Source of the DNA: Siniperca chuatsi
Taxonomy: Eukaryota > Chordata > Actinopteri > Centrarchiformes > Sinipercidae
DNA length: 64,000 bases
Direction: 5' to 3'
Assembly (NCBI RefSeq): GCF_020085105.1
Contig: NC_058056.1
Span: 20,012,429-20,076,428, forward strand
Part shown: positions 24,417 to 63,940 of the stretch, piece after piece
Numbering within the stretch: the first letter of the stretch is position 1
How the letters are laid out: every line of letters begins with the position of its first letter
Program-made: the position numbers and the translations under genes
The notes under the pieces: generated by a model
The model's input: only the letters and a program-made list of their open reading frames with translations
Databases searched by the model: none
What the model was told of the DNA's origin: nothing

Positions 24417-24436
24417 GGAAGTGAAACAAACAGATG
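24417..24436 (+). promoter_or_regulatory. PU.1/IRF4 composite site and E-box, J1-C1 intron
   Basis: GGAAGTGAAA (24417-24426) fits the Ets-IRF composite consensus GGAANNGAAA. It is followed four bases later by the E-box CAGATG (24431-24436). The context AAAAGGAAGTGAAAC is close, as I remember it, to the mouse lambda enhancer lambda-B site. Mammalian Ig light-chain enhancers are bound by PU.1-IRF4 and E2A; that this works as an enhancer in fish is inference. Confidence 0.7.
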
Positions 24437-24812
24437 ACAAAGTCTTTAAACTGTATACAGACATTACAGTTTTTTAAACAAGAAAATAGTTGCAGGGATG
24501 AATTCTTTACTGAAAAACATTATAAAGCAGATACGAACATTTCATTTGATGATCCTTAATTGAAAGTTTTGATTACATTTCCAGCTAAATCATGTTGCAT
24601 ATTATTGTCTAAATCTCAGTGATTTCTGATGAGTGCCACAGTATAGCTTCCCATTCCTCACCTCCTCTCCTCTGTCTGATCACAGTATCATGCACACAGC
24701 CGATCCACAGTAGTGTAAACCTCTGTCATGTATTATAACTGTCTCCTGTTCAGCTGTCTGTCCTACAGTGGAAGTTCATCTGCTCCTTGTGTGTCTCTGC
24801 TCTCCCCTCCAG

Positions 24813-25132
24813 CTGGCCCCATGGTCAGGCCCTCAGTCTCTCTGCTTTCCCCCTCCTCTGAGCAGCTCTCTGGGGGCTCGGCCACGCTGGCCTGCCTGCT
24901 GACTGGCTACTCTCCTCAGGGAGCCGTGGTGAGCTGGGAGGTGGACGGTACAGAGGTGACAGAGGGCGTCCTGACCAGCTCAGAGGAGGAGAAGGGCGGA
25001 CGCTACAGCAGCAGCAGCACCCTGAGCCTGAGCCAGGAGCGCTGGATGGAAGGAGAGCTGTACTCCTGCAAGGTCCTCCATCATGACCAAAGCCAGACCC
25101 AGACCCTCCACAGGAGCCAGTGTAAGGGCTAG
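24813..25132 (+). CDS. IgL constant exon C1, kind A
   Basis: Single C1-set Ig domain exon of 320 nt: 2 nt complete the J codon, then 105 residues and stop TAG. The acceptor is CCCTCCAG|CT. The domain runs from VRPSVSLLSPSSEQLSGG through Cys in ATLACLLTG, Trp in VSWEVDG and Cys in LYSCKVLHH. The C-terminus SQCKG carries the cysteine that pairs with the heavy chain. A poly(A) signal AATAAA is at 25374-25379. It resembles the kappa-like light chains (L1/L3 group) of fish; the isotype name is not fixed here. Confidence 0.95.
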
Positions 25133-25865
25133 AGGGACTGGCTGAAGCCCGGGACAAGAGCTCTGTGTGGGGGGGAGCAGGAGGAACTAACCTGCTGCTC
25201 TGATCAATTTGAGTTTTAACGTTTGCAGAGGAAACTAAAGCTTTGTGTGACAGAGAACAACACTGCTCTAAAGTGTTGGACAACAACAACCACTTAGAGA
25301 GTAATGTGTGTAGCTCAGCAGCTGGATGTGAGTGTGCTTAATAACTGTCATGTTGATGATTGATGTTTTTGCTAATAAAGCTTTAACTGATAAATAACTT
25401 TATGAAGTGTTTGGTCTTTTATCTTCTGAAGAGGAGTAAGAAATTCAATGTTTTTTTTACTTCAGCTGATACTCCTCTCTGTGGAAAAAGAAATGGTTTG
25501 GATTGATCATGTAAATATTAATATCACCATTGCTTTTTATGTGGAGTTACTGAAGTTGATATTACATAGTATCATGATAAAAAACACTTGAACAATCAGT
25601 TTTGTGAATATGTGATTAGGCAACATTTGTCTCTATTTCCGACAGTAAATGTGAGCAGAATGTGATTTGGCGTCATTGGATGTTTAACTAATTTAATAGT
25701 GTGAATCTGTAGTTTGTGCTTGGTGAGGTTACTGTCAGCTCTGTGTTCAGTGGTCTGTGTCAGAGTCTCTTCCTCTTCAGCAGCTGCAGTCGGTTCCTGC
25801 TGTAACAGCTCAGTGTCTCTGCAGTCTGACTGAGGGAGGTTTTTGTACGACGACAAATCACTGTG

Positions 25866-26336
25866 TGAACACCCAAGCACTGTTTATGTTGTGTACACTC
25901 TTACAGTAATAAACTGCTGCATCTTCAGTCTGAACTCCACTGATGGTCAAAGTGAAGTCAGAGCTGCTTCCACTGCCACTAAACCGAGCTGGTGTTCCTG
26001 AGTGAAGCTTTTTCGCATATCTTATTAGAAGCTTTGGAGGCTGTCCAGATTTCTGTTGATACCAGTGCATATAGTCATCTCCATCACTGTCTCTGTAAAC
26101 AGCTTGGTTGGTCTTACAGGTGAGAGTGACAGTGGATCCTGGAGTAGATGTCACTACTGGAGGCTGAGTCACCGTCACCTGACCGCTGCATCCTGCAGAC
26201 AAAAACAAATAATTCATTTATCAGCAGAACTAAATGAGAGAAAAGGCAGCACATCATGTTTGAAATGCTGCTGAGTGAATGAACCTGTGAAACAGCAGCA
26301 TGCCAGCGTCCAGATGAGGATGGTGATGAGAGTCAT
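25866..26336 (-). CDS. IgL V2, type 1
   Basis: Leader 26285-26336; V exon 25866-26192, open throughout. The 12-RSS has heptamer 25859-25865 and nonamer 25838-25846. CDR1 is [17 protein letters not shown]2 has YAKKLHS, and CDR3 is [11 protein letters not shown]. It differs from V3 in CDR1 and by only a few bases elsewhere. The nearest downstream C (C2) has no J, so joining would need J1 or a more distant J. Confidence 0.93.
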
Positions 26337-26933
26337 GGTGGTTGTGGTTTCTGCTGTGTTGACTGACAGATCTGAGTGCTGCAGTGTTGAACTCACAGGA
26401 CTATAAACCTTCTCAGTTCACTGCAGATCAGCTGACGATGCAAAGCCTCCTCTCTATGGAAATGATTTCTCTGCTCTCAACAGACTGAAGGCAACGTGGG
26501 ACACAAAATCAGGAGGAATACTGCTTGGATTAACAAAATCTATGGTATTATTGTGATGGGAAAAAATAGATTAGAAATAGAATTGAGGATGTTCAACGTT
26601 TGGATTAAAATGGTGTCACTGTGATGATATTACATAGTATCATGATAAAAAACACTTGAACAATCAGTTTTGTGAATATGTGATTAGGCAACATTTGTCT
26701 CTATTTCCGACAGTAAATGTGAGCAGAATGTGATTTGGCGTCATTGGATGTTTAACTAATTTAATAGTGTGAATCTGTAGTTTGTGCTTGGTGAGGTTAC
26801 TGTCAGCTCTGTGTTCAGTGGTCTGTGTCAGAGTCTCTTCCTCTTCAGCAGCTGCAGTCGGTTCCTGCTGTAACAGCTCAGTGTCTCTGCAGTCTGACTG
26901 AGGGAGGTTTTTGTACGACGACAAATCACTGTG

Positions 26934-27404
26934 TGAACACCCAAGCACTGTTTATGTTGTGTACACTCTTACAGTAATAAACTGCTGCATCTTCAGTCTG
27001 AACTCCACTGATGGTCAAAGTGAAGTCAGAGCTGCTTCCACTGCCACTAAACCGAGCTGGTGTTCCTGATTGAAGCTTTTTCGCATATCTTATTAGAAGC
27101 TTTGGAGGCTGTCCAGATTTCTGTTGATACCAGAACATAGCCTCATCTCCGTCACTATATGTGTGAACAGCTCGGTTGGTCTTACAGGTGAGAGTGACAG
27201 TGGATCCTGGAGTAGATGTCACTACTGGAGGCTGAGTCACCGTCACCTGACCGCTGCATCCTGCAGACAAAAACAAATCATTCATTTATCAGCAGAAATA
27301 AATGAGAGAAAAGACAGCACATCATGTTTGAAATGTTGCTGAGTGAATGAACCTGTGAAACAGCAGCAGGCCAGCGTCCAGATGAGGATGGTGATGAGAG
27401 TCAT
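26934..27404 (-). CDS. IgL V3, type 1
   Basis: Leader 27353-27404; V exon 26934-27260, open. Heptamer 26927-26933, nonamer 26906-26914. CDR1 is [17 protein letters not shown]2 has YAKKLQS, and CDR3 is the same [11 protein letters not shown] as V2. It is the right-hand copy of the 1,068-bp duplication. Its 5' flank is cut at about 27598 by the deletion that took J from the C2 unit. Confidence 0.93.
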
Positions 27405-27598
27405 GGTGGTTGTGGTTTCTGCTGTGTTGACTGACAGATCTGAGTCCTGCAGTGTTGAACTCACATGACTATAAACCTTCTCAGTTCACTGCAGATCAGC
27501 TGACGATGCAAAGCCTCCTCTCTATGGAAATGATTTCTCTGCTCTCAACAGACTGAAGGCAACGTGGGACACAAAATCAGGAGGAATACTGCTTGGAT

Positions 27599-28251
27599 TA
27601 ATGATAACAAAATGTATATGAGCAAGAAAATTCAACTATTTTCGAATATTCCATTTTAATAAAAACTTTGAATTATTTGCTTAAAAATGTTCAAAAGTAA
27701 CATTCGGTCAAGTACAACTTTTAATGCTCAAAAGATAACATCAGTAGTTTAATTTTTTTTTCATTCATTCATTTTGAACATTCAAACTGTTTTATAATTT
27801 AAAATCTGATGTGGATTCCTGTCAAACACAAACACGATTTTATCAGTAAATGCAGCTTCTCTTTGTGTTCGCGGTTCAGTCATTTGACATGTAGTGAAAA
27901 GGAAGCGAAAGAGACAGATGGCAAAGATTTTAACTGTATTCACATGAGTGTTTCAGCTCTGTCAGTTTAAACAGAAGAAAATCATCACAGGGAAGAGTTA
28001 TTCACTGTCACACATTATGAAACACAGATGAAGATGTCATCAATAATCATTATCAATCAACCTTTTTAGTTGCATTTACACTTGAATCATGTGTCTGATG
28101 GTCTGATACTGAGTGATTTATGAGTGCAGCAGCAGCAAGTTATTCTGTTTTATTTGACAAAATATAAAAAATTAGCAGTTTGTCATTTGTCTTTATTACC
28201 AAGCCTTCACTCTCATTCCTTTGTCTTTCCTCCCCCCTCTCTTTCCTCCAG
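27599..28251 (+). other. C2 upstream intron without a J segment
   Basis: The V3 5' flank (…ACTGCTTGGATTA) joins directly to sequence (GATAACAAAATGTATAT) that in the J2-C3 and J5-C7 units lies 160-220 bases beyond J. No RSS or FGxG motif is present between here and C2. Confidence 0.85.
27901..27920 (+). promoter_or_regulatory. PU.1/IRF4 composite site and E-box upstream of C2
   Basis: GGAAGCGAAA (27901-27910) and CAGATG (27915-27920), in the same arrangement as in kind A introns. It has been kept although the unit has lost its J. Confidence 0.65.
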
Positions 28252-28574
28252 TGGGTGTGGTGCGGCCCACCCTGACCGTCCTCCCCCCCTCCACAGAGGA
28301 GCTGCAGCAGGGCAGTGCCACGCTGCTGTGTCTGGCCAGCGGGGGCTTCCCCTCAGCCTGGAGGCTGGGCTGGAAGGTGGGGGGCAGCAGCAGCTCCTCA
28401 GGGGTGTCACACAGCCTGGAGGTCCTGGGGAGGGACGGCCACTACAGCTGGAGCAGCACCCTGAGCCTCCCTGCAGACCAGTGGAGGAAGGCGGGCTCAG
28501 TGAGCTGTGAGGCCAGTCTGAATGGACAGAGCCCTGTCACTCAAACCCTGGACCCTGACCGCTGCTCAGAGTAG
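28252..28574 (+). CDS. IgL constant exon C2, kind B, no J of its own
   Basis: 323-nt C1-set exon: 2 nt, 106 residues, stop TAG. Key parts are VVRPTLTVLPPSTEELQQGS, Cys in ATLLCLASGG, WKVGG, WSSTLSLPADQWRKAG, Cys in SVSCEASLNG and terminal Cys in DPDRCSE. The acceptor TTTCCTCCAG|TG is intact and AATAAA is at 29166-29171. The exon is open and its protein equals C7, but the J that should precede it is deleted. It could be used only by splicing from an upstream J such as J1, or may be silent. Its 3' UTR carries a SINE. Confidence 0.9.
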
Positions 28575-28750
28575 AGCTTCAGCAACACTTCCTGTCTGGA
28601 AATGATGCTGCTTCTTTGGCAGAGATCTTGATGAAGCTACAGATCTCCTCTGTTCAGATATTTCTGCAAGTTTCACAGCTCTCTACTCAGTGTTTTAGTG
28701 TGCATGTTGCTTTCTAATACTGATCTTCTGCATATTCTTCTTTATGTTCA

Positions 28751-29062
28751 TCCATCCATCCATCCATTTTCTACCGCTTGGTCCCGTTAGGGGTCGCGGG
28801 TGACTGGAGCCTATCCCAGTGACTTTGGGCCTTAGGCAGGGTACACCCTGGACAGTGGCCAACTCGTCGCAGGGCTAACACAGACACAGACAAGGACAGA
28901 CAACCATTCACTCTCACATTCATTCAATACGGGCAATTTTTTTTTTTTAGAGTTATCAATTAACCTACACATGCATGTCTTTGGACGGTGGGAGGAAGCC
29001 GGAGATTTGAATTGGGAATTGGGAGGCAGGAGCTTTAGCCGCTCTGCCACCGTGCACCCCAG
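28751..29062 (-). mobile_element. tRNA-headed SINE, copy 2, in the 3' UTR of C2
   Basis: Same family as 16374-16739, with the tail (CCAT units) at the left and a shortened head at the right. It is flanked by the 13-bp duplication TTCTTTATGTTCA at 28738-28750 and 29063-29075. The matching positions after C3, C5 and C7 are uninterrupted, so the insertion is unique to this copy. Confidence 0.92.
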
Positions 29063-29734
29063 TTCTTTATGTTCATTACTTTTCAAATGAAACTGATTAT
29101 TATTAGTTTCACTCCAAGAGAATCTCAATCATCAAAAATGTGGCATGAACATTAAACCATCATTAAATAAAACTGTGGATTATAATGAGTCAGTGTCTTT
29201 GTATTTCTTTTAGAATATATTCATTATGAAAAACATTGTCAGTATCATACCTGACATTATCCTATACCTGATAGTACAGGAGATGGTTGTATATTTATTA
29301 CTTTGAATAGAAAATTCTCCATTTTGAGAATGACATCATTTGGATTTTCAAAATGAAGAGGGATAAATTGTGAATTTTAGTTTCTGCTTGGACTGTTGTT
29401 ACATTAAATTGTTTTGTGCAGCTATCAGTAGCGACACTGTTAAATATTTTTGATATCAGTGTCTGTAGTCCAACAAGAATTTCATTTCCCTGCTTACTCA
29501 TAAAAAGACTGAATGAACTGACCAGAATATAAGTTTAAAACTGTGTCTGGAAGAGTGTCTGTGAGTTTGTTTCAGTTTTATTTAGATTCATTGTGGTTCT
29601 GCTTGATGACTCTTGTGTTGTGTTCACTGGACCAGTTATCCTCATCACAGTCTCTACACCAACCCTCTGCACCTGCAGCAGGCCGTTTTCACTTCAAACT
29701 GAAGGAGGTTTTTGTACGGCTCTAAATCACTGTG

Positions 29735-30240
29735 TGAACACTCCACCACCATGGGCACCCAGACAGTAGTAATCTCCAGCATCTTCAGCCTGAACACCAC
29801 TGATGGTCAGAGTGTAGTGAGAACCAGATCTACTGCCACTGAATCGAGACGGAGTTCCAGAGAAGAGAGTTGATGCTTTGTATATAAGAAGTTTGGGAGC
29901 CTGTCCAGGTTTCTGAAGGTACCAACTGAGATCAGCACCAATATTTGAACTCCCTGTGGCGCTGATGGCCACAGTCCCTCCAAGACTAACAGACTTGGAT
30001 TTGTCAGTCTGAGTCAGAAAATTGTTGGCAGAAGACTCTGAAAAGAGAAGAGAAAAATCTTAAGGAGAAATATTTAACACTGTATGGAGAAGCAATTCAC
30101 GTTATAATAGAAGACAATAATAAACATGTTTAAACAAATGTAAAAAGGGATTGCACAGACTGGATTTACACCAAACATTTTCTAAACTTCTCACCCTGAC
30201 TCAGAAAACCCAACATGACAAGCAGAGTTATTGACAACAT
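29735..30240 (-). CDS. IgL V4, type 2 (lacks the first disulfide cysteine)
   Basis: Leader 30195-30240 ([15 protein letters not shown]), V exon 29735-30037, open. The 12-RSS has heptamer 29728-29734 and nonamer 29707-29715. The domain reads [47 protein letters not shown] and [10 protein letters not shown]. At the position of Cys23 there is Ala (codon GCC), while Trp and Cys104 are present. An octamer variant TTTTGCAT (30338-30345) lies about 100 bases upstream, with an AT-rich TATA-like run beside it. It sits between C2 and V5, with no J of its own type. Confidence 0.9.
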
Positions 30241-30715
30241 CGTCCTGATGAAGTTTTCAGTGTGAGTGCATGAAAACAGTTCAGACTCTCTGTGACATGA
30301 GAACTTAAACTCTGAGGAGCAGTGATGCATAAAATTCATGCAAAATATATTTAAGAAGGCAAACACACACCTGTTCTTGTGAAACTGAAAAAGCAGAGGT
30401 GAGGTGGAGTGAGAGTTCTTCATCTTGAGGATCATTCGGCCAATTAAAGTCCATGTAGAAAAGTTTGACTTCATGTTCCTTTTCATCGTGCTTTTCTTCA
30501 TTGTAAACACTCTCCTTTTTATTTCTTTATATTCTCACGTGCCTTTGTCCTCATTAACAGGTCTATAGCGCCCCCTGCTGGCAAACTGTGTAGACACTGA
30601 ACTCACTTAAAAGTGATTTTTGATTGATTTAGAATTTCTTCATTAACTTCATTGTCATGTATGTCATTCTTATATTCCAGATCCAGGTGTTGCATTTAGG
30701 ATAATGGGATGTAAA

Positions 30716-31167
30716 TGTCATGGTTTGGGTCTTGAGTTCAGTCATTTCCTGTTTTATTTTGTAATGCTCACCTCTGTTTTGTACTTTACTTCCTGCCTTT
30801 GTGTCTTTTCCCTCCAGTTTTGATTGTCCGCAGCGCCCTGATTAGTTTCACCTGTGTCTAGTTATCGTTCCCTCACCTGTGTATTTAGTCCACGTGTCTT
30901 CCCTCTGCCAGCTGTCAGGTTGTCTGCGTCTGTTCCCCAGTCCTGCGTTTGCTCAGTATTGTTACCTGTGTTTCTCATGCCAGTTTGTTTCTAGTGTAGT
31001 TTTTGTATCTCTCCTTTGTTTCTTGGATTCTGCCTTTACCTGCTCCCTCTGTTTTTGTTGTCTGTCTGTTTTGTTGGAATCAGTTTTTCTAATTAAAACT
31101 CTCCTTTAATTGTGAGACCTGCCTGCCTGGAGTTCTGCATTTGGGTCCTTTTTGCTCAACTGTAACA
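30716..31167. mobile_element. Solo-LTR-like fossil, copy 1 (452 bp)
   Basis: The element begins TG (TGTCATGG) and ends CA (TGTAACA). It is flanked by the 5-bp duplication GTAAA (30711-30715, 31168-31172), the signature of LTR-retroelement integration. No internal coding region is present, so it is read as a lone LTR. A second copy with the same flanks is at 47468-47919, carried there by the array duplication. The matching site near V6 is empty. The family is not identified. It is older than the array duplication but younger than the split of the type 2 V units. Confidence 0.75.
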
Positions 31168-31532
31168 GTAAACCCATCTGACCTCAGTGTATTTAGTTTA
31201 GAGCCCTCTGTGTTTCAGCTGACCATCCCAAATACCTGAACTTTCTCACCACACTAAACAGTAACATCAAGAAAAGATTCTTCTTTAAATAAAGTATTAA
31301 AATGTTGAGAAATATGTAATCAAAATGAAAGAAAATAAAAATATATAAAATATGCCAATATATTAGTGTGAATCTGTAGTTTGTGCTTGGTGAGGTTACT
31401 GTCAGCTCTGTGTTCAGTGGTCTGTGTCAGAGTCTCTTCCTCTTCAGCAGCTGCAGTCGGTTCCTGCTGTAACAGCTCAGTGTCTCTGCAGTCTGACTGA
31501 GGGAGGTTTTTATACGACGACAAATCACTGTG

Positions 31533-32045
31533 TGAACACCTTAGCACTGTTTATTTCATGGTAACTGACAGTAATAAACTGCTGCATCTTCAGTCTGAAC
31601 TCCACGGATGGTCATCGCAGCATTCACTCCATCCCCTCTGCCAGAGAATCAAGAAGAAAACTCACTTGTGGGATTTTTACCCAAGCTGATGACCAACTTG
31701 GGAGCTTCTCCAGATTTCTGCTGATACCAGTATACTCTACTATCTCCATCTGACCAAACGTAAACTTTAGGGTTGGTTTTACAAGTCAGAGTGACTGTGG
31801 ATCCAAGAGAAGATGTGACTACAGCAGGTTGAGTCACAGTCACTTGACTACTAGATCCTGAAAAAAATAGGGAAAAAACTGAACATTATTAACTCATATT
31901 AAGAAGTAAAGAAGTAAGTGTTATATCCAGCAATTACTGAAAGGTTTACGTGATCTGATTATTTTCTAATTTTATGTTCAAAATAATGCTGACCTTTGAT
32001 AAAGCAGCAGGCCAGCGTCCAGATGAGGATGGTGATGAGAGTCAT
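31533..32045 (-). pseudogene. IgL V5 pseudogene, type 1, diverged
   Basis: Leader 31994-32045; V-exon remnant 31533-31857. The frame matches the type 1 group ([17 protein letters not shown], Cys in [21 protein letters not shown]) but has an in-frame TGA in framework 3, where RFSG is expected as *FSG. Past it the frame continues to [16 protein letters not shown]. The RSS has heptamer 31526-31532, 12-bp spacer, and an altered nonamer (GGTTTTTAT on the plus strand). Only this V precedes J2. It is clearly more diverged from V1-V3 than they are from each other. Confidence 0.9.
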
Positions 32046-32700
32046 GGTGGTTGTGGTTTCTGCTGTGTTGACTGACAGATCTGAGTGCTGCAGTGTTGAA
32101 CTCACAGGACTATAAACCTTCTCAGTTCACTGCAGATCAGCTGACGATGCAAAGCCTCCTCTCTATGGAAATGATTTCTCTGCTCTCAACAGACTGAAGG
32201 TAACGTGGGACACAAAATCAGGAGGAATACTGCTTGGATTAACAAAATCTATGGTATTATTGTGATGGGAAAAAATAGATTAGAAATAGAATTGAGGATG
32301 TTCAACGTTTGGATTAAAATGGTGTCACTGTGGTTGGTATAATATGTTTATTTCTTTTCCTATATTTACCTATAGGGTACATTATACATTTCAAAGCTTC
32401 TTGTTATAGACCTGTAATTCTAGATTTTTTGAAAAAAACTTTTTTCTTTTCTTTACAGTCAAATAAGTTATGTAAAATAACTTTTAAAATATAAATATAT
32501 TAAAGTGGAAATTAAGTGTTTTTTCTCAACAGTTAAAAGTTACAATATAATAATAAATAATTTAAATTATCTTGATTCATGAAGCAATTTGAAGCCACAT
32601 GAGTTAAATCATTCTATACATTGAACAAATTATTAATTATGCAGTTTTACCTGAAAAAAAAAAAGTTTTCAGTGGATAGATGCTTGTTCACAGTGCAAGA

Positions 32701-32778
32701 GGTTTTTGTACGGCCACTTAATGAGTTTGTATCACTGTGTGTACACTTTTGGCGGTGGAACCAAACTCGTCGTTGACT
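32701..32778 (+). CDS. IgL J2 with 23-RSS
   Basis: Nonamer 32701-32709, 23-base spacer, heptamer CACTGTG 32733-32739. J segment 32740-32778 encodes [12 protein letters not shown] and ends T|GTAAGT, in phase with C3. It is one nucleotide longer at the 5' end than the other J segments (39 against 38). Confidence 0.94.
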
Positions 32779-33250
32779 GTAAGTACCAGAGATTTTTATT
32801 TTCTACAACATACAGCAAATATAACTTTTATTAAATATTGAATGAGACTGATCAAGTTCAGTGTTTGTGTTTGTAATTTTTGTTATTTTATCAAACTGAT
32901 CTCACAATCTGAGATGAAACCTTGCAGAGATTAATATTTATTCTGCATTACAGATAACAAAATGTATATAAGCAAGAAAATTCAACTATTTTCAAATATT
33001 CCACTTTAATAAAAACTTGAATTATTTGCTTAAAAATGTTCAAAAGTAACATTCGGTCAAGTACAACTTTTAATGCTCAAAAAAATAACATCAGTAGTTC
33101 AATTTTATTTTCATTCATTAATTTTGAACATTCAAACTGTTTTATAATTTAAAATCTGATGTGGATTCCTGTCAAACACAAACACGATTTTATCAGTAAA
33201 TGCAGCTTCTCTTTGTGTTCGCGGTTCAGTCATTTGACATGTAGTGAAAA

Positions 33251-33270
33251 GGAAGCGAAAGAGACAGATG
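33251..33270 (+). promoter_or_regulatory. PU.1/IRF4 composite site and E-box, J2-C3 intron
   Basis: GGAAGCGAAA (33251-33260) and CAGATG (33265-33270). Confidence 0.65.
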
Positions 33271-33613
33271 GCAAAGATTTTAACTGTATTCACATGAGTG
33301 TTTCAGCTCTGTCAGTTTAAACAGAAGAAAATCATCACAGGGAAGAGTTATTCACTGTCACACATTATGAAACACAGATGAAGATGTCATCAATAATCAT
33401 TATCAATCAACCTTTTTAGTTGCATTTATACTTGAATCATGTGTCTGATGGTCTGATACTGAGTGATTTATGAGTGCAGCAGCAGCAAGTTATTCCGTTT
33501 TATTTGACAAAATATAAGAAATTAGCAGTTTGTCATTTGTCTTTATTACCAAGCCTTCACTCTAAGTCCTTTGTCTTTTCTCCCCCCTCTCCTCCCCCCT
33601 CTCTTTCCTCCAG

Positions 33614-33936
33614 TGGGTGTGGTGCGGCCCACCCTGACCGTCCTCCCCCCCTCCACAGAGGAGCTGCAGCAGGGCAGTGCCACGCTGCTGTGTCTGGCCA
33701 GCGGGGGCTTCCCCTCAGCCTGGAGGCTGGGCTGGAAGGTGGGGAGCAGCAGCAGCTCCTCAGGGGTGTCACACAGCCTGGAGGTCCTGGGGAGGGACGG
33801 CCACTACAGCTGGAGCAGCACCCTGAGCCTCCCTGCAGACCAGTGGAGGAAGGCGGGCTCAGTGAGCTGTGAGGCCAGTCTGAATGGACAGAGCCCTGTC
33901 ACTCAAACCCTGGACCCTGACCGCTGCTCAGAGTAG
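33614..33936 (+). CDS. IgL constant exon C3, kind B
   Basis: 323-nt exon, open, with the same landmarks as C2. It differs by one Gly-to-Ser change (WKVGS). It has a functional J (J2) 835 bases upstream. The pyrimidine tract before the acceptor holds an extra CCTCCCCCCT-type repeat compared with the other B units. Poly(A) signal at 34203-34208. Confidence 0.95.
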
Positions 33937-35245: not shown

Positions 35246-35559
35246 CGTCCTGATGAAGTTTTCAGTGTGAGTGCATGAAAACAGTTCAGACTCTCTGTGA
35301 CATGAGAACTTAAACTCTGAGGAGCAGTGATGCATAAAATTCATGCAAAATATATTTAAGAAGGCAAACACACACCTGTTCTTGTGAAACTGAAAAAGCA
35401 GAGGTGAGGTGGAGTGAGAGTTCTTCATCTTGAGGATCATTCAGCCATTTAAAGTCCATCTAGAAAAGTTTGTCTTCATGCTTTATTGAAAATTCTCCTT
35501 TTTATTTCCTTGTAATCTCACATGCCTTTGCCCTCATTTACAGGTCTATAGCGCCCCCT

Positions 35560-42014: not shown

Positions 42015-42091
42015 GGTTTTTGTACGGCCACTTAATGAGTTTGTATCACTGTGGTTGACTTTTGGTGGAGGAACCAAACTCATCTTTCACT
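42015..42091 (+). CDS. IgL J3 with 23-RSS
   Basis: Nonamer 42015-42023, heptamer 42047-42053, J 42054-42091 encoding [12 protein letters not shown]. The first residue is Leu (TTG) where J1 and J4 have Trp (TGG). Donor T|GTAAGT. Confidence 0.94.
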
Positions 42092-42553
42092 GTAAGTACC
42101 AGAGATTTTTATTTTCTACAACATAAAATAATATAATAATACATTTTGCATGATAATGTGATAAAAACAAGACATTATTTTGGCTAATTTACATGTTGTG
42201 GATATTTTTTTACCTTTATGAAGCTCGGCTAATATTGAAGTTTGACATTAACATTGTGCAGATTAAAATTCTTCTTGTATCATAGATGAAGTTATGGAAA
42301 AATATATGCCAAAAAACATGAATTTTATTCTTTTTTTCAATCTAATATTAGTTTCACAAAGGTTGGTTGCAAAATTTGCTTGAGGAACATTTTTAAAATT
42401 AAAAACATAAGTTTTTTTATTTATTTTGAAATTGAAAAAGTTATTAGGTATAAAATCTAATGTGGATGCTGTTAAAACATTAAGTGAGTTTATATGAACA
42501 TCCAGTATCGCTGTAGTTTGCGTTCACAGTTCGTTAGTTTAAAGTGGTGAAAA

Positions 42554-42573
42554 GGAAGTGAAACAAACAGATG
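42554..42573 (+). promoter_or_regulatory. PU.1/IRF4 composite site and E-box, J3-C4 intron
   Basis: GGAAGTGAAA (42554-42563) and CAGATG (42568-42573). Confidence 0.7.
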
Positions 42574-42949: not shown

Positions 42950-43269
42950 CTGGCCCCATGGTCAGGCCCTCAGTCTCTCTGCTTTCCCCCTCCTCTGAGC
43001 AGCTCTCTGGGGGCTCGGCCACACTGGCCTGCCTGCTGACTGGCTACTCTCCTCAGGGAGCCGTGGTGAGCTGGGAGGTGGACGGTACAGAGGTGACAGA
43101 GGGCGTCCTGACCAGCTCAGAGGAGGAGAAGGGCGGACGCTACAGCAGCAGCAGCACCCTGAGCCTGAGCCAGGAGCGCTGGATGGAAGGAGAGCTGTAC
43201 TCCTGCAAGGTCCTCCATCATGACCAAAGCCAGACCCAGACCCTCCACAGGAGCCAGTGTAAGGGCTAG
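42950..43269 (+). CDS. IgL constant exon C4, kind A
   Basis: 320-nt exon, open. The predicted protein is the same as C1, with only silent differences (for example ACG/ACA before CTGGCC). Poly(A) signal 43510-43515. The identity reflects the recent array duplication or gene conversion. Confidence 0.95.
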
Positions 43270-44001
43270 AGGGGCTGGCTGAAGCCCGGGACAGGAGCTC
43301 TGTGTGGGGGGAGCAGGAGGAACTCACCTGCTGCTCTGATCAATTTGAGTTTTAACATTTGCAGAGGAAACTAAAGCTTTGTGTGACAGAGAACAACACT
43401 GCTGTAAAGTGTTGGACAAAAACAACCACTTAGAGAGTAATGTGTGTAGCTCAGCAGCTGGATGTGAGTGTGCTTAATAACTGTCATGTTGATGATTGAT
43501 GTTTTTGCTAATAAAGCTTTAACTGATAAATAACTTTATGAAGTGTTTGGTCTTTTATCTTCTGAAGAGGAGTAAGAAATTCAATGGTTTTATTACTTCA
43601 GCTGATACTCCTCTCTGTGGAAAAAGAAATGGTTTGGATTGATCATGTAAATATTAATATCACCATTGCTTTTTATGTGGAGTTACTGAAGTTGATATTA
43701 CATAGTATCATGATAAAAAACACTTGAACAATCAGTTTTGTGAATATGTGATTAGGCAACATTTGTCTCTATTTCCGACAGTAAATGTGAGCAGAATGTG
43801 ATTTGGCGTCATTGGATGTTTAACTAATTTAATAGTGTGAATCTGTAGTTTGTGGTTGGTGAGGTTACTGTCAGCTCTGTGTTCAGTGGTCTGTGTCAGA
43901 GTCTCTTCCTCTTCAGCAGCTGCAGTCAGTTCCTGCTGTAACAGCTCAGTGTCTCTGCAGTCTGACTGAGGGAGGTTTTTGTACGACGACAAATCACTGT
44001 G

Positions 44002-44472
44002 TGAACACATCAGCACTGTTTATTTCATGGTAACTCTGACAGTAATAAACTGCTGCATCTTCAGCCTGAACTCCACCGATGGTCAAAGTGAAGTCAGAGC
44101 TGCTTCCACTGCCACTAAACCGAGCTGGTGTTCCTGATTGAAGCTTTTTCACATATCTTATTAGAAGCTTTGGAGGCTGTCCAGATTTCTGTTGATACCA
44201 TTGCATATAGTCATCTCCGTCACTGTCTCTGTAAACATCTTGGTTGGTCTCACAGGTGAGAGTGACATTGGATCCTGGAGTAGATGTCACTACTGGAGGC
44301 TGAGTCACCGTCACCTGACCGCTGCATCCTGCAGACAAAAACAAATCATTCATTTATCAGCAGAAATAAATGAGAGAAAAGGCAGCACATCATGTTTGAA
44401 ATGTTGCTGAGTGAATGAACCTGTGAAACAGCAGCAGGCCAGCGTCCAGATGAGGATGGTGATGAGAGTCAT
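44002..44472 (-). CDS. IgL V9, type 1
   Basis: Leader 44421-44472; V exon 44002-44328, open. Heptamer 43995-44001, nonamer 43974-43982. CDR1 is [17 protein letters not shown]2 YVKKLQS, CDR3 [11 protein letters not shown]. Small framework changes (TCETN for [14 protein letters not shown]) set it apart from V2 and V3, its counterparts in the first array. Confidence 0.94.
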
Positions 44473-44668
44473 GGTGGTTGTGGTTTCTGCTGTGTTGACT
44501 GACAGATCTGAGTCCTGCAGTGTTGAACTCACAGGACTATAAACCTTCTCAGTTCACTGCAGATCAGCTGACGATGCAAAGCCTCCTCTCTATGGAAATG
44601 ATTTCTCTGCTCTCAACAGACTGAAGGCAACGTGGGACACAAAATCAGGAGGAATACTGCTTGGATTA

Positions 44669-45319
44669 ATGATAACAAAATGTATATAAGCAAGAAAATT
44701 CAACTATTTTCGAATATTCCATTTTAATAAAAACTTGAATTATTTGCTTAAAAATGTTCAAAAGTAACATTCGGTCAAGTACAACTTTTAATGCTCAAAA
44801 AAATAACATCAGTAGTTCAATTTTTTTTTCATTCATTCATTTTGAACATTCAAACTGTTTTACCATTTAAAATCTAATGTGGATTCCTGTCAAACACAAA
44901 CACGATTTTATCAGTAAATGCAGCTTCTCTTTGTGTTCGCGGTTCAGTCATTTGACATGCAGTGAAAAGGAAGCGAAAGAGACAGATGGCAAAGGTTTTA
45001 ACTGTATTCACATGAGTGTTTCAGCTCTGTCAGTTTAAACAGAAGAAAATCATCACAGGGAAGAGTTATTCACTGTCACACATTATGAAACACAGATGAA
45101 GATGTCATCAATAATCATTATCAATCAACCTTTTTAGTTGCATTTACACTTGAATCATGTGTCTGATGGTCTGATACTGAGTGATTTATGAGTGCAACAG
45201 CAGCAAGTTATTCCGTTTTATTTGATAAAATATAAAAAATTAGCAGTTTGTCATTTGTCTTTATTACCAAGCCTTCACTCTCATTCCTTTGTCTTTCCTC
45301 CCCCCTCTCTCTCCTCCAG
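44669..45319 (+). other. C5 upstream intron without a J segment
   Basis: It has the same fusion as before C2: …GCTTGGATTA runs directly into ATGATAACAAAATG. No RSS or J between V9 and C5. Confidence 0.85.
44969..44988 (+). promoter_or_regulatory. PU.1/IRF4 composite site and E-box upstream of C5
   Basis: GGAAGCGAAA (44969-44978) and CAGATG (44983-44988). Confidence 0.65.
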
Positions 45320-45642
45320 TGGGTGTGGTGCGGCCCACCCTGACCGTCCTCCCCCCCTCCACAGAGGAGCTGCAGCAGGGCAGTGCCACGCTGCTGTGTC
45401 TGGCCAGCGTGGGCTTCCCCTCAGCCTGGAGGCTGGGCTGGAAGGTGGGGAGCAGCAGCAGCTCCTCAGGGGTGTCACACAGCCTGGAGGTCCTGGGGAG
45501 GGACGGCCACTACAGCTGGAGCAGCACCCTGAGCCTCCCTGCAGACCAGTGGAGGAAGGCGGGCTCAGTGAGCTGTGAGGCCAGTCTGAATGGACAGAGC
45601 CCTGTCACTCAAACCCTGGACCCTGACCGCTGCTCAGAGTAG
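45320..45642 (+). CDS. IgL constant exon C5, kind B, no J of its own
   Basis: 323-nt open exon. Compared with C2 and C7 it has Gly-to-Val in the LASGGFPS turn (LASVGFPS) and Gly-to-Ser (WKVGS, as in C3). The Gly-to-Val change in an otherwise invariant turn, together with the missing J, would suit relaxed constraint. Poly(A) signal 45909-45914. Confidence 0.9.
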
Positions 45643-46484
45643 AGCTTCAGCAACACTTCCTGTCTGGAAATGATGCTGCATTTTTGACAGAGATCTTGAT
45701 GAAGCTACAGATCTCCTCTGTTCAGATATTTCTGCACGTTTCACAGCTCTCTACTCAGTGTTTTAGTGTGCATGTTGCTTTCTAATACTGATCTTCTGCA
45801 TATTCTTCTTTATGTTCATTACTTTTCAAATGAAACTGATTATTATTAGTTTCACTCCAAGAGAATCTCATTCATCCAAAATGTGGCATGAACATTAAAC
45901 CATCATTAAATAAAACTGTGGATTATAATGAGTCATTGTCTTTGTATTTCTTTTATGATATGTTCTTTATGAAAAACATTGTCAGTATCATACCTGACAT
46001 TATCCTATACCTGATAGTACAGGAAATGGTTGTATATTTATTACTTTGAATAGAAAATTCTTCATTTTGAGAATGACATCATTTGGATTTTCAAAATGAA
46101 GAGTAATAAATTGTGAATTTTAGTTTCTGCTTGGACTGTTGTTACATTAAATTGTTTTGTGCAGCTATCAGTAGCGACACTGTTAAATATTTTTGATATC
46201 AGTGTCTGTAGTCCAAGAACAAGAATTTCATTTCCCTGCTTACTCATAAAAAGACTGAATGAACTGACCAGAATATAAGTTTAAAACTGTGTCTGGAAGA
46301 GCGTCTGTGAGTTTGTTTCAGTTTTATTTAGATTCATTGTGGTTCTGCTTGATGACTCTTGTGTTGTGTTCACTGGACCAGTTATCCTCATCACAGTCTC
46401 TTCACCAACCCTCTGCACCTGCAGCAGGCCGTTTTCAATTCAGTCAAACTGAAGGAGGTTTTTGTACGGCTCTAAATCACTGTG

Positions 46485-46991
46485 TGAACACTCCACCACC
46501 ATGGTAGCCCAGACAGTAGTAATCTCCAGCATCTTCAGCCTGAACACCACTGATGGTCAGAGTGTAGTGAGAACCAGATCTACTGCCACTGAATCGAGAC
46601 GGAGTTCCAGAGAAGAGAGTTGATGTACTGTATATAAGAAGTTTGGGAGCCTGTCCAGGTTTCTGAAGGTACCAACTGAGATCAGCACCAATATTTGAAC
46701 TCCCTGTGGCGCTGATGGCCACAGTCCCTCCAAGACTAACAGACTTGGATTTGTCAGCCTGAGTCAGAAAATTGTTGGCAGAAGACTCTGAAATGAGAAA
46801 AGAAAAATCTTAAGGAGAAATGTTTACCAGCCAACGGAGAAGCAATTCACGTTATAGTAGAAGAAAATAATAAAAATGTTTAAACAAATGTAAAAAGGAA
46901 TTGCACAGACTGGATTTGCACCAAACATTTTTTTAAACTTCTCACTCTGACTCAGAAAACCCAACATGACAAGCAGAGTTATTGACAACAT
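46485..46991 (-). CDS. IgL V10, type 2
   Basis: Leader 46946-46991; V exon 46485-46787, open. Heptamer 46478-46484, nonamer 46457-46465. Ala replaces Cys23 ([11 protein letters not shown]). CDR2 is STST, CDR3 CLGYHGGG. The last leader base is A instead of G, which turns the split codon from Glu to Lys; the donor GTGAG remains. Confidence 0.9.
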
Positions 46992-47467
46992 CGTCCTGAT
47001 GAAGCTTTCAGTGTGAGTGCATGAAAACAGTTCAGACTCTCTGTGACATGAGAACTTAAACTCTGAGGAGCAGTGATGCATAAAATTCATGCAAAATATA
47101 TTTAAGAAGGCAAACACACACCTGTTCTTGTGAAACTGAAAAAGCAGAGGTGAGGTGGAGTGAGAGTTCTTCATCTTGAGGATCATTCGGCCAATTAAAG
47201 TCCATGTAGAAAAGTTTGACTTCATGCTTTTTCTTCATGGTGTTTTTCTTCATTAAAAACACTCTCCTTTTTATTTCTTTATAGTCTCACATGCCTTTGT
47301 CCTCATTAACAGGTCTATAGCGCCCCCTGCTGGCAAACTGTGTAGACACTGAACTCACTTAAAAGTGATTTTTGATTGATTTAGAATTTCTTCATTAATT
47401 TCATTGTCATGTATGTCATTCTTATTTTCCAGATCCAGGTGTTGCATTTAGGATAATGAGATGTAAA

Positions 47468-47919
47468 TGTCATGGTTTGGGTCTTGAGTTCAGTCATTTC
47501 CTGTTTTATTTTGTAATGCTCACCTCTGTTTTCAACTTTACTTCCTGCCTTTGTGTCTTTTCCCTCCAGTTTTGATTGTCCGCAGCGCCCTGATTAGTTT
47601 CACATGTGTCTAGTTATCGTTCCCTCACCTGTGTATTTAGTCCACGTGTCTTCCCTCTGCCAGCTGTCAGGTTGTCTGCGTCTGTTCCCCAGTCCTGCGT
47701 TTGCTCAGTATTGTTACCTGTGTTTCTCATGCCAGTTTGTTTCTAGTGTAGTTTTTGTATCTCTCCTTTGTTTCTTGGATTCTGCCTTTACCTGCTCCCT
47801 CTGTTTTTGTTGTCTGTCTGTTTTGTTGGAATCAGTTTTTCTTATTAAAACTCTCCTTTAATTGTGAGACCTGCCTGCCTGGAGTTCTGCATTTGGGTCC
47901 TTTTTGCTCAACTGTAACA
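47468..47919. mobile_element. Solo-LTR-like fossil, copy 2 (452 bp)
   Basis: Same length, ends (TG...CA) and flanking GTAAA (47463-47467, 47920-47924) as the copy at 30716. The two derive from one insertion that was duplicated with the array; the high similarity fits a fairly recent duplication. Confidence 0.75.
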
Positions 47920-48284
47920 GTAAACCCATCTGACCTCAGTGTATTTAGTTTAGAGCCCTCTGTGTTTCAGCTGACCATCCCAAATACCTGAACTTTCTCG
48001 CCACACTAAACAGCAACATCAAGAAAAGATTCTTCTTTAAATAAAGTATTAAAATGTTGAGAAATATGTAATCAAAATGAAAGAAAATAAAAATATATAA
48101 AATATGCCAATATATTAGTGTGAATCTGTAGTTTGTGCTTGGTGAGGTTACTGTCAGCTGTGTGTTCAGTGGTCTGTGTCAGAGTCTCTTCCTCTTCAGC
48201 AGCTGCAGTTGGTTCCTGCTATAACAGCTCAGTGTCTCTGCAGTCTGACTGAGGGAGGTTTTTGTACGACGACAAATCACTGTG

Positions 48285-48746
48285 TGAACACTCTACCACT
48301 GTGGTAACTCTGACAGTAATAAACTGCTGCATCTTCAGTCTGAACTCCACTGATGGTCAAAGTGAAGTCAGAGCTGCTTCCACTGCCACTAAACCGAGCT
48401 GGTGTTCCTGATTGAAGCTTTTTCGCATATCTTATTAGAAGCTTTGGAGGCTGTCCAGATTTCTGTTGATACCAGAACATAGCCTCATCTCCGTCACTAT
48501 ATGTGTGAACAGCTTGGTTTGTTTTACAGGTGAGAGTGACAGTGGATCCTGGAGTAGATGTCACTACTGGAGGCTGAGTCACCGTCACCTGACCGCTGCA
48601 TCCTGCAGACAAAAACAAATCATTCATTTATCAGCAGAAATAAATGAGAGAAAAGGCAGCACATCATGTTTGAAATGCTGCTGAGTGAATGAACCTGTGA
48701 AACAGCAGCAGGCCAGCGTCCAGATGAGGATGGTGATGAGAGTCAT
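48285..48746 (-). CDS. IgL V11, type 1
   Basis: Leader 48695-48746; V exon 48285-48602, open. Heptamer 48278-48284, nonamer 48257-48265. CDR1 is [14 protein letters not shown], as in V3; CDR3 is the short CQSYHSGR form shared with V1, with an internal heptamer at 48297-48303. It precedes J4-C6. Confidence 0.94.
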
Positions 48747-49390
48747 GGTGGTTGTGGTTTCTGCTGTGTTGACTGACAGATCTGAGTCCTGCAGTGTTGA
48801 ACTCACATGACTATAAACCTTCTCAGTTCACTGCAGATCAGCTGACGATGCAAAGCCTCCTCTCTATGGAAATGATTTCTCTGCTCTCAACAGACTGAAG
48901 GCAACGTGGGACACAAAATCAGGAGGAATACTGCTTGGATTAACAAAATCTATGGTATTATTGTGATGGGAAAAAATAGATTAGAAATAGAATTGAGGAT
49001 GTTCAACGTTTGGATTAAAATGGTGTCACTGTGGTTGGTATGATATGTCTATTTCTTTTCCTATAATCACCTATAGGGTACATTATACTTTTCAAAGCTT
49101 CTTGTTATAGACTTGCAATTCAAGATTTTTGGGGGAAAAAATTGTTTCTCTTAACAGTCAAATATGTTAAGTAAAATAAGTATTAAAATACAAATATATT
49201 AAAGTGGAAATTAAGTGTTTTTTCTCAACAGTTAAAAGTTACAATAAAATAATTACAATTTTCTCGATTCATGAAGAAATTTGAAGCCACATGAGTTAAA
49301 TCATTTTGTACATTGAATAAATTATTAATTATGCAGTTTTACCTGAAAAAAAAAGTTTTCAAAGGATAGATGCTTGTTCACAGTGCAGGA

Positions 49391-49467
49391 GGTTTTTGTA
49401 CGGCCACTTAATGAGTTTGTATCACTGTGGTGGACTTTTGGTGGAGGAACCAAACTCATCTTTCACT
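49391..49467 (+). CDS. IgL J4 with 23-RSS
   Basis: Nonamer 49391-49399, heptamer 49423-49429, J 49430-49467 encoding [12 protein letters not shown], same as J1. Donor T|GTAAGT. Confidence 0.94.
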
Positions 49468-49926
49468 GTAAGTACCAGAGATTTATATTTTCTACAACAT
49501 AAAATAATATAATACATTTTGCATGATAATGTGATGAAACAAGACATTATTTTGGAAAAATTTACATGTTGTGGATATTTTTTTACCTTTATGAAGCTCG
49601 GCTAATATTGAAGTTTGACATTAACATTGTGCAGATTAAAATTCTTCTTGTATCATAGATGACGTTATGGAAAAATATATGCCAAAAAACATGAATTTTA
49701 TTCTTTTTTTCAATCTAATATTTGTTTCACAAAGGTTGGTTGCAAAATTTGCCTGAGGAACATTTTAAAAATTAAAAACATAAGTTTTTTTATTTATTTT
49801 GAAATTGAAAATGTTATTAGGTATAAAATCTAATGTGGATGCTGTTAAAACATTAAGTGAGTTTATGTGAACATCCAGTATCGCTGTAGTTTGCGTTCAC
49901 AGTTCGTTAGTTTAAAGTGGTGAAAA

Positions 49927-49946
49927 GGAAGTGAAACAAACAGATG
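49927..49946 (+). promoter_or_regulatory. PU.1/IRF4 composite site and E-box, J4-C6 intron
   Basis: GGAAGTGAAA (49927-49936) and CAGATG (49941-49946). Confidence 0.7.
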
Positions 49947-50322
49947 ACAAAGTCTTTAAACTGTATACAGACATTACAGTTTTTTAAACAAGAAAATAGT
50001 TGCAGGGATGAATTCTTTACTGAAAAACATTATAAAGCAGATACGAACATTTCATTTGATGATCCTTAATTGAAAGTTTTGATTACATTTCCAGCTAAAT
50101 CATGTTGCATATTATTGTCTAAATCTCAGTGATTTCTGATGAGTGCCACAGTATAGCTTCCCATTCCTCACCTCCTCTCCTTTGTCTGATCACAGTATCA
50201 TGCACACAGCCGATCCACAGTAGTGTAAACCTCTGTCATGCATCATAACAGACTCCTGTTCAGCTGTCTGTCCTACAGTGGAAGTTCATCTGCTCCTTGT
50301 GTGTCTCTGCTCTCCCCTCCAG

Positions 50323-50642
50323 CTGGCCCCATGGTCAGGCCCTCAGTCTCTCTGCTTCCCCCCTCCTCTGAGCAGCTCTCTGGGGGCTCGGCCACACTGG
50401 CCTGCCTGCTGACTGGCTACTCTCCTCAGGGAGCCGTGGTGAGCTGGGAGGTGGACGGTACAGAGGTGACAGAGGGCGTCCTGACCAGCTCAGAGGAGGA
50501 GAAGGGCGGACGCTACAGCAGCAGCAGCACCCTGAGCCTGAGCCAGGAGCGCTGGATGGAAGGAGAGCTGTACTCCTGCAAGGTCCTCCATCATGACCAC
50601 AGCCAGACCCAGACCCTCCACAGGAGCCAGTGTAAGGGCTAG
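50323..50642 (+). CDS. IgL constant exon C6, kind A
   Basis: 320-nt open exon. It differs from C1 and C4 by Ser-to-Pro (SLLPPSSEQ) and Gln-to-His (HHDHSQT). Cysteines and Trp are kept. Poly(A) signal 50883-50888. Confidence 0.95.
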
Positions 50643-51374
50643 AGGGACTGGCTGAAGCCCGGGACAGGAGCTCTGTGTGGGGGGAGCAGGAGGAACTCAC
50701 CTGCTGCTCTGATCAATATGAGTTTTAACGTTTGCAGAGGAAACTAAAGCTTTGTGTGACAGAGAACAACACTGCTGTAAAGTGTTGGATATCAACAACG
50801 ACTTAGAGAGTAATGTGTGTAGCTCAGCAGCTGGATGTGAGTGTGCTTAATAACTGTCATGTTGATGATTGATGTTTTTGCTAATAAAGCTTTAACTGAT
50901 AAATAACTTTATGAAGTGTTTGGTCTTTTATCTTCTGAAGAGGAGTAAGAAATTCAGTGGTTTTATAACTTCAGCTCATACTCCTCTCTGTGGAAAATGA
51001 AAAAGTTTGGATTGATCATGTAAATATTAATATCACTATTGCTTTTTATGTGAAGTTACTGAAGTTGATATTACATAGTATCATGATAATAAATACTTGA
51101 ACAATCAATTTTGTGAATATGTGATTAGGCAACATTTGTCTCTCTTTCTGACAGTAAATGTGAGCCGAATGTGATTTGGCGTCATTAGTTGTTCAATTAA
51201 TTTAATAGTGTGAATCTGTAGTTTGTGCTTGGTGAGGTTACTGTCAGCTCTGTGTTCAGTGGTCTGTGTCAGAGTCTCTTCCTCTTCAGCAGCTGCAGTC
51301 AGTTCCTGCTGTAACAGCTCAGTGTCTCTGCAGTCTGACTGAGGGAGGTTTTTGTACGACGACAAATCACTGTG

Positions 51375-51845
51375 TGAACACTCCACCACTGTTTATTTCA
51401 TGGTAACTCTGACAGTAATAAACTGCTGCATCTTCAGTCTGAACTCCACTGATGGTCAAAGTGAAGTCAGAGCTGCTTCCACTGCCACTAAACCGAGCTG
51501 GTGTTCCTGATTCACGAGTGCTCACATAGTATATTAGGAGCTTTGGAGGCTGTCCAGATTTCTGTTGATACCAGAACATAGCCTCACCTCCATCATCATA
51601 TGTGTCAACAGCTTGGTTTGTTTTACAGGTGAGAGTGACAGTGGATCCTGGAGTAGATGTCACTACTGGAGGCTGAGTCACCATCATCTGACCGCTGCAT
51701 CCTGCAGACAAAAACAAATCATTAATTTATCAGCAGAAATAAATGAGGGAAAAGGCAGCACATCATGTTTGAAATGTTGCTGAGTGAATGAACCTGTGAA
51801 ACAGCAGCAGGCCAGCGTCCAGATGAGGATGGTGATGAGAGTCAT
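51375..51845 (-). CDS. IgL V12, type 1
   Basis: Leader 51794-51845; V exon 51375-51701, open. Heptamer 51368-51374, nonamer 51347-51355. The N-terminus is GQMMVTQPP where others have [12 protein letters not shown]1 is [17 protein letters not shown]3 [11 protein letters not shown]. The octamer variant is TTTTGCAT (51947-51954). Confidence 0.94.
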
Positions 51846-52497
51846 GGTGGTTGTGGTTTCTGCTGTGTTGACTGACAGATCTGAGTCCTGCAGTGTTGAA
51901 CTCACAGAACTATAAACCTTCTCAGTTCACTGCAGATCAGCTGACGATGCAAAACCTCCTCTCTATGGAAATGATTTCTCTGCTCTCAACAGACTGAAGG
52001 CAACGTGGGACACAAAATCAGGAGGAATACTGCTTGGATTAACAAAATCTATGATCTTAGTGGAATAGAAGAAACCATTTATATTAGAAGTACAGTTGAG
52101 GATTTAAGGATAAGTTTGTGTCCACTGTGGTTGGTATGATATGTCTGTTGGTCTGCCTTTAACTTACTTGCAGGGTTTAACTGTAGATAAATAACATATT
52201 TCAGTTCTGCTTAATAATGTTTGTAAATCATTATTGTTCAAAAGCATCATGTTCATTTAACCATGTATCAGCTGATATGAAACTGAATCAAATGACTTTG
52301 TTACAAGGAGACTGTATCGTTTCTCTGTCAGGTGTAGGAAAGTAAAGAAAAATTAAAGAAATAATCTTCATTTAAACAATCATTTCAATCCATTTCATTA
52401 AAAAAACTCTGTAGATTCAATAGTATACATTTTTCTATTTTATTAGAAAAGGCAGAGAGTTTTTTTCAGCGGATAAATGCTTGTTCACAGTGCAGGA

Positions 52498-52574
52498 GGT
52501 TTTTGTACGGCCACTTAATGAGTTTGTATCACTGTGGTGGACTTTTGGTGGAGGAACCAAACTCATCGTTGACT
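52498..52574 (+). CDS. IgL J5 with 23-RSS
   Basis: Nonamer 52498-52506, heptamer 52530-52536, J 52537-52574 encoding [12 protein letters not shown]. The start is like J1 and the end (IVD) like J2, as suits a kind B unit. Donor T|GTAAGT. Confidence 0.94.
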
Positions 52575-53029
52575 GTAAGTACCAGAGATTTTTATTTTCT
52601 ACAACATACAGCAAATATAACTTTTATTAAATATTGAATGAGACTGATCAAGTTCAGTGTTTGTGTTTTATCAAACTGATCTCACAATCTGAGATGAAAC
52701 TTTACAGAGATGAATATTTATTCTGCATTACAGATAACAAAATGTATATAAGCAAGAAAATTCAACTATTTTCGAATATTCCACTTTAATAAAAACTTGA
52801 ATTATTTGCTTAAAAATGTTCAAAAGTGACATTCGGTCAAGTACAACTTTTAATGCTTAAAAGATAACATCAGTAGTTCAGCAGTGTTTTCATTCATTCA
52901 TTTTGAACATTCAAACAGTTTTATAATTTTAAATCTGATGTGGATTCCTGTCAAACACAAACACGATTTTATCAGTAAATGCAGCTTCTCTTTGTGTTCG
53001 CGGTTCAGTCATTTGACATGTAGTGAAAA

Positions 53030-53049
53030 GGAAGCGAAAGAGACAGATG
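53030..53049 (+). promoter_or_regulatory. PU.1/IRF4 composite site and E-box, J5-C7 intron
   Basis: GGAAGCGAAA (53030-53039) and CAGATG (53044-53049). Confidence 0.65.

Positions 53050-59314: not shown

Positions 59315-63940
<4,626 letters not shown>

Follow-up and report, generated by a model that had tools for sequence, protein, structure and literature searches.

We have analysed 64 kb of the Siniperca chuatsi genome (RefSeq assembly GCF_020085105.1, contig NC_058056.1, positions 20,012,429 to 20,076,428 of the forward strand; hereafter the window, numbered from the first letter of the whole stretch), which contains an array of seven immunoglobulin light-chain units on C15. The element studied here is a short core, made of a PU.1/IRF-type composite site and a CAGATG E-box, that is repeated in every unit ahead of the constant (C) exon. 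A comparable but larger array on C17 of the same assembly has been used for comparison.

The units fall into two kinds, A (A1 to A3) and B (B1 to B4). Constant exons of kind A lie at 24815..25129 (A1, plus strand), 42952-43266 and 50325-50639, and those of kind B at 28254..28571 (B1, plus strand), 33616-33933, 45322-45639 and 53383-53700. All were located by own-genome matches, and the exons tested with Pfam are C1-set for C (A1 and B1) and V-set for the variable (V) exons. At 98-100% identity, A-type constant exons occur in the assembly only at the window's three places. A joining (J) segment with a recombination signal sequence (RSS) of 23-bp spacer was found ahead of the core in five units, the 23-RSS lying on the minus strand at 23882..23920 (A1; J from 23921, plus strand), 32701..32739 (B2; J from 32740), 42015..42053 (A2; J from 42054), 49391..49429 (A3; J from 49430) and 52498..52536 (B4; J from 52537). 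The order is J, element, C in these five units, and no J was found in B1 and B3; the J-C intron location proposed by an earlier sequence-only reading of this DNA applies to the former, and its J-less class to the latter two. A V segment with a 12-RSS lies opposite to J and C at 22748..23118 (minus strand), its signal being one of 14 minus-strand 12-RSS (V side) found between 21 and 57.5 kb. Teleost kappa-type (L1/L3) inversional clusters have likewise been described with V opposite to J/C, V12/J23 RSS and several clusters (passages of PMC5241823, PMC3014032 and PMC11223323); these passages describe no intronic enhancer, and "enhanc" has no occurrence in PMC5241823.

The sequence GAAAAGGAAGYGAAA was matched without mismatch exactly seven times in the window, on the plus strand only, and each match opens one core: A1 (24412..24436, with the composite GGAAGTGAAA at 24417 and the E-box CAGATG), B1 (27896..27920), B2 (33246..33270), A2 (42549..42573), B3 (44964..44988), A3 (49922..49946) and B4 (53025..53049). 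The sequence-only reading had numbered the cores by their GGAA, five bases past each GAAAAGGAAGYGAAA start, and its claim of a PU.1/IRF4 plus E-box core in all seven units was borne out exactly, since CAGATG begins 4 nt past GAAA in 7/7 cores (E-box at +14). With up to three mismatches allowed, GAAAAGGAAGYGAAA has 16 matches in the window, compared with a mean of 6.2 and a maximum of 13 in shuffles. The 25-base pattern GAAAAGGAAGYGAAANNNACAGATG, covering composite and E-box, has seven matches in the 718.8-Mb own assembly, all inside the window, and its reversed control has none. All seven cores match the consensus GGAANNGAAA of the Ets-IRF composite element (EICE), at which PU.1 or SPIB assists the binding of IRF4 (as described in passages of PMC9454692), and all seven carry GGAA, not GAAA. 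They belong to two lineages, A (n = 3; 24417, 42554, 49927; GTGAAAC) and B (n = 4; 27901, 33251, 44969, 53030; GCGAAAG). No GGAANNGAAA match on either strand was found in the 29 kb of the window outside the light-chain span.

Within each kind the core-bearing stretches are 96-98% identical (blastn; 3/3 A pairs and 4/6 B pairs compared), and the independent comparison is therefore a single A-B pair. Between the A and B introns, blastn gives an alignment of about 370 bp, from -143 to +224 of the core, with 67% identity. In a MAFFT alignment of the same introns, a 33-bp core is identical at 29/33 positions (88%) and is the best-conserved 33 bp there, the identity outside it being 48% over the intron (Fisher 4e-6 versus the core) and 57% over the block (2.4e-4). 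Since the limits of the core were chosen after viewing the alignment, it is fairer to use a column permutation, which for the best 33-column window gives p = 0.0008 over the intron and 0.024 within the block. The lack of such an excess had been named by the sequence-only reading as one of two results that would refute it, and the alignment thus passes this half of the check. Its description of the surroundings as widely diverged needs amendment: the core does stand out from the rest of the intron, but some 370 bp around it still align. The putative enhancer block lies at 24274..24641 in A1 (-143..+224 of the core GGAA, plus strand) and at 27758..28127 in B1 (plus strand; blastn and MAFFT alignment), and blocks homologous to that of A1 surround the other six cores. 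Variation among copies gives a second measure. Over -95..+215 a single change separates the three A copies, where the 3.85-kb unit averages 14.5 per 310 bp, and this is the lowest value of the unit. The same stretch has one change between B2 and B4 (mean 6.7), which constant-exon windows equal, and four among all four B copies (mean 9.4), where constant-exon windows are lower.

The C17 array provides independent support for an Ets-IRF composite with a nearby E-box in every unit, a claim which is now well supported. Own-genome matches to the B constant exon number at least 59, of which 7 are on C15 (the window), 47 on C17 and 5 on C21. Examination covered 42 of the C17 matches; five rows were dropped, two overlapping a counted exon and three being fragments of 32-51 query residues, while two kept rows are as short (45 and 49 residues) and several kept rows contain stops or are partial. 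The C17 array (C17:1578372-1802065 and C17:3443000-3690500) is larger than that of the window, and many of its J-bearing units have two J. Sense-strand GGAANNGAAA was found upstream of 35/42 constant-exon matches, at 61-169 bp, and antisense GGAANNGAAA in 0/42 of these upstream flanks (1500 bp read; one flank 791 bp). A 3' flank of 1500 bp was available at 26 loci; it holds an EICE (antisense) at one of them, and 24 of the 26 have a sense one upstream.

The pair of sites is associated with J. In all of the 21 C17 units with a J 23-RSS, EICE and E-box are present together, with the E-box 31-46 bp downstream; one of these, unit 3487193, was counted as J-bearing with an intact RSS and a degenerate J. 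The paired E-boxes are CATCTG (14/22 pairs), CAGCTG or CACCTG, and as a control, 112/819 overlapping 60-bp windows contain an E-box. Of the 21 C17 units without J, one has both sites. Presence of the EICE alone gives 21/21 with J and 14/21 without (Fisher 0.0086). The J/E-box association on C17 is suggestive, and its p-values, which treat units as independent, are descriptive only. With the five window units added to the 21 of C17, the EICE/E-box pair is present in 26/26 of the kappa-type cassettes that showed a J signal.

The C17 introns are of two types, which differ far more than their constant exons: the exons L022 (type 1) and L021 (type 2) are 99% identical in DNA, and blastn of type 1 (L022) against type 2 (L012, L024) gave at the element only matches of 17 bp (E 0.023) and 13 bp (E 0.079), the others being J-region stretches and a few short ones elsewhere. 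When four intron types are compared (one A, one B and both C17 types), GGAAGNGAAA is the sole 10-mer with one wildcard that they have in common. No common 10-mer with at least three G/C arose in 200 shuffles; this filter was chosen with knowledge of the motif.

On this evidence we hold with high confidence that a PU.1/IRF4 plus E-box enhancer is built into each kappa-type J-C cassette and moves with the cassette on inversion. The core would lie at the heart of an enhancer, active in the B lineage and about 300-370 bp long, within the J-C intron. PU.1 (or SpiB) on AAAAGGAAGYG would bring in IRF4 (or IRF8) on the GAAA next to it, the former marking the intron and IRF4 activating it, and an E-protein or another basic helix-loop-helix factor may occupy the downstream E-box. 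The enhancer would raise germline J-C transcription, give accessibility for V-J joining, and afterwards drive the joined gene. From the RSS orientation we infer that joining inverts only the V when this lies upstream, and J, enhancer and C as one block when it lies downstream, and the enhancer would stay with its cassette in every join because it lies between J and C. That each unit has its own intronic enhancer, as the sequence-only reading had proposed, is strongly argued for by the sequence, short of a demonstration. As to the E-box factor, E12/E47 prefer CASSTG (passages of PMC3972084), and since CAGATG is not of this type, E2A is uncertain.

Several observations weigh against this enhancer. 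B1 and B3 keep the core though no J was found there, the C17 units without J keep the EICE in 14/21 cases, and the J/E-box association corresponds to about three changes of the J label on a constant-exon tree in which most forks are weak and four short rows were omitted. The E-box spacing varies (14, 31, 45 and 46 bp). Some common 10-mer with one wildcard was given by 13/200 shuffles (6.5%), and in the C17 introns the EICE belongs to the best-conserved windows without exceeding them, 5.6-8.8% of windows being as high. In the B units, constant-exon windows vary as little as the intron block. A scan of the seven window units with NF-kB and MEF2 motifs found no NF-kB match (GGGRNWYYCC) in -200..+240 of any unit and no MEF2 match common to A and B; a MEF2-like match is present in A1 and A2 only, at -161, and a single E-box is common to A and B. 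Finally, a sense EICE is absent upstream of C in four units on C21 (L053-L056, C21:11.17-11.22 Mb), which we take to be sigma-like by resemblance and by their V12/J23 RSS.

In each of these four near-identical sigma-like units there is an antisense GGAACTGAAA that begins 36 bp upstream of where the J RSS starts and would be parted from J-C by rearrangement; the site may be due to chance. For the remaining C21 locus, L057 (C21:20.075 Mb), a reading as a lambda-like light chain was dropped, since T-cell receptor beta chains are numerous among the best named relatives of its protein. We read it as a constant exon of T-cell receptor beta-like type, preceded by J segments with 12-RSS, and GGAANNGAAA is absent from the 5 kb examined there. 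As far as tested, the EICE rule covers kappa-type cassettes of one species. No relatives of A, B and the aligned constant exons were found in viral contigs, or of the C17 constant-exon protein in genome contigs. A paper on an Atlantic cod light-chain enhancer reportedly appeared about 2000; our search did not find it, and the novelty of the present finding is therefore uncertain. Among the titles and abstracts listed, none reports an Ets-IRF site in the light-chain introns of teleosts, and passages of PMC9936319 contain nothing on it. The positions of the elements should also be set beside those of the well-known enhancers.

The mammalian kappa 3' enhancer sits 3' of C, whereas the fish element is in the J-C intron, the same place as the mammalian kappa intronic enhancer. 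In content the comparison is reversed. According to PMC3972084, the kappa intronic enhancer has five conserved E-boxes and NF-kB, as compared with one A/B-common E-box and the Ets-IRF composite in the fish, and the kappa 3' enhancer has, as here, an E-box and a PU.1-IRF4 composite (supplement legend) together with an NF-kB site, of which none was found in the fish blocks. The same source describes E-box, NF-kB, MEF2 and PU.1-IRF4 motifs in common to the lambda enhancers of chicken, mouse and human. The chicken and human lambda enhancers, which target hypermutation, thus have the composite and E-box found here and add NF-kB and MEF2, which the chicken enhancer needs and of which the human one tolerates single losses. 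The mouse Ig lambda-B PU.1 probe (excerpt of PMC544580) contains AAAAGGAAGTGAAAC, 15 consecutive bases that are present in kind A too, and it has in common with one unit of each C17 type the 11 bases GGAAGTGAAAC and with kind B 9 bases; none of the other 1585 80-bp pieces of the window has 12 or more bases in common with this probe. Passages of PMC10602925 report that E2A binds the mouse lambda enhancer as well, that mutated PU.1 or IRF4 sites in Elambda3-1 lower reporter activity, and that these enhancers are placed in the 3' domain of the locus. In the fish the element is in the J-C intron, one per cassette. A reference title in PMC10602925 speaks of functional independence from NF-kappa B for a mouse lambda enhancer, and the missing NF-kB match is therefore no difference from mouse.

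In its sequence, the fish element reads as a lambda/kappa-3' enhancer reduced to composite and E-box and put in the kappa intronic enhancer's place. We file it as an EICE, not as an orthologue of the tetrapod lambda/kappa-3' enhancers: it lies between J and C instead of 3' of C, and the lack of any NF-kB match and of a MEF2 match common to A and B keeps it out of that class. It probably works like those enhancers.

Further matches and features of the window are as follows. The minus-strand GGAANNGAAA matches, GGAAAAGAAA four times and GGAAATGAAA four times, look like copies of two sites, with family 1 at 29480, 34518, 46226 and 54280 and family 2 at 23543, 32351, 41676 and 49052, one family being 3' of kind B constant exons and the other upstream of V promoters; both families probably arose by copying of sites that are due to chance. 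A single copy of GGAAGTGAAAC with CAGATG about 59 nt downstream (55459..55523, minus strand), at the array's 3' edge, is an eighth element in candidate form and, from its sequence, an unproven candidate for a locus-wide 3' enhancer; taken alone it is not significant. It has a purine-rich 5' flank and adjoins a V-like segment (55775-56035) without a Pfam match. The homology of B1 to B2/B4 ends some 300 bp ahead of the core and gives way to V-side flank, and B3 is like B1; at about 27594 and 44662 this flank meets the J-C intron of B1/B3 with J lost, which puts a V promoter octamer 370 bp from the core. The octamer ATTTCCAT occurs on the minus strand at 23364, 26463, 27531, 32172, 41497, 44599, 48873 and 51972, upstream of V exons (one examined), and is the variant reported for torafugu IGLV3 (passage of PMC5241823); perfect ATTTGCAT was not found between 21.5 and 57.5 kb. 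The flanking genes by Pfam are a sodium:dicarboxylate symporter family member (874-1206), an RRM protein, ELAV-like by eye (10449-10760), and a protein kinase, PAK-like by eye (60139-60531).

The strongest competing account is that the seven elements, together with those of C17, act as one clustered enhancer, or hub, so that the array opens as a unit. We give it an even chance. The near-identical copies lie within 29 kb, and passages of PMC10602925 describe mouse lambda enhancers with PU.1/IRF4 sites that form one hub and activate the locus jointly. The hub and the cassette enhancer preferred here differ only on whether units act alone, and our confidences in the two are not exclusive. The proposal of the sequence-only reading that clusters open and rearrange separately is unsupported, since seven copies in 29 kb could act as the mouse hub does; by this analogy, joint action is at least as likely as separate opening.

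The core might also persist without function, by ancestry and gene conversion alone, that is, by recent copying and homogenisation. The high identity within each kind would fit this, and so would exchange between kinds. The constant exons of B are 68-69% identical to four aligned C17 exons and 43% to A, and despite this grouping of B with C17 the long intron alignment was seen between A and B only, a conflict which favours copying. The J regions (-570 to -425) of A1, A3 and B4 are 96% identical, though A and B constant exons have 43% identity, which points to J exchange between the kinds. Judged from the sequences, the simplest account is a probable exchange of the A-B intron block within the C15 cluster as well, and therefore A-B conservation alone gives no date for the element; the C17 introns, which contain it too, are a better guide to its age. 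The footprint among paralogues that the sequence-only reading saw holds as regards the excess conservation of the core, and is reduced in that seven copies amount to two lineages with a probably exchanged block. Copying alone is nevertheless improbable: the otherwise non-aligning C17 introns keep the same 10-mer, the core is more conserved than the rest of its own block, variation is depleted over -95..+215 in A, and the A-B conservation, the common 10-mer and the J/E-box association together weaken it.

Quite improbable, too, is that the composite is an interferon-response element (IRF homodimer, GAAANNGAAA) or the site of another Ets factor, in place of PU.1/IRF4. GGAAGTGAAA differs by one base from the ISRE consensus GAAAnnGAAA (given in a passage of PMC9454692), but GGAA is present in all seven window cores (C17 cannot be counted here, as the search pattern required GGAA), and the purine-rich 5' flank and the 15-mer in common with the mouse lambda-B PU.1 probe point to PU.1. 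A germline J-C promoter or an intronic RNA or splicing signal would explain why the window cores and the C17 hits are always on the gene's sense strand, but is highly improbable, because this strand is also expected from common descent, the distance to C varies from 61 to 396 bp over window and C17, and kind B has GC for GT, which makes a splice donor unlikely.

Returning to the cassette enhancer, we suggest very tentatively that an ancestral Ets-IRF/E-box enhancer of the J-C intron acts as a per-cassette licence, which a cassette has to keep in order to be joined and expressed and which travels with J-C on inversion, that units which have lost J go on to lose the E-box, and that tetrapods retained the module but shifted it 3' of C as their clusters gave way to single loci.

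For the question of how fish with dozens of tandem light-chain cassettes control which one rearranges, the compact element present in every kappa-type cassette with a J signal, on two chromosomes, offers a defined target for mutation. The match to the mouse lambda-B probe suggests an old PU.1/IRF4 switch of light chains whose place relative to C has changed.

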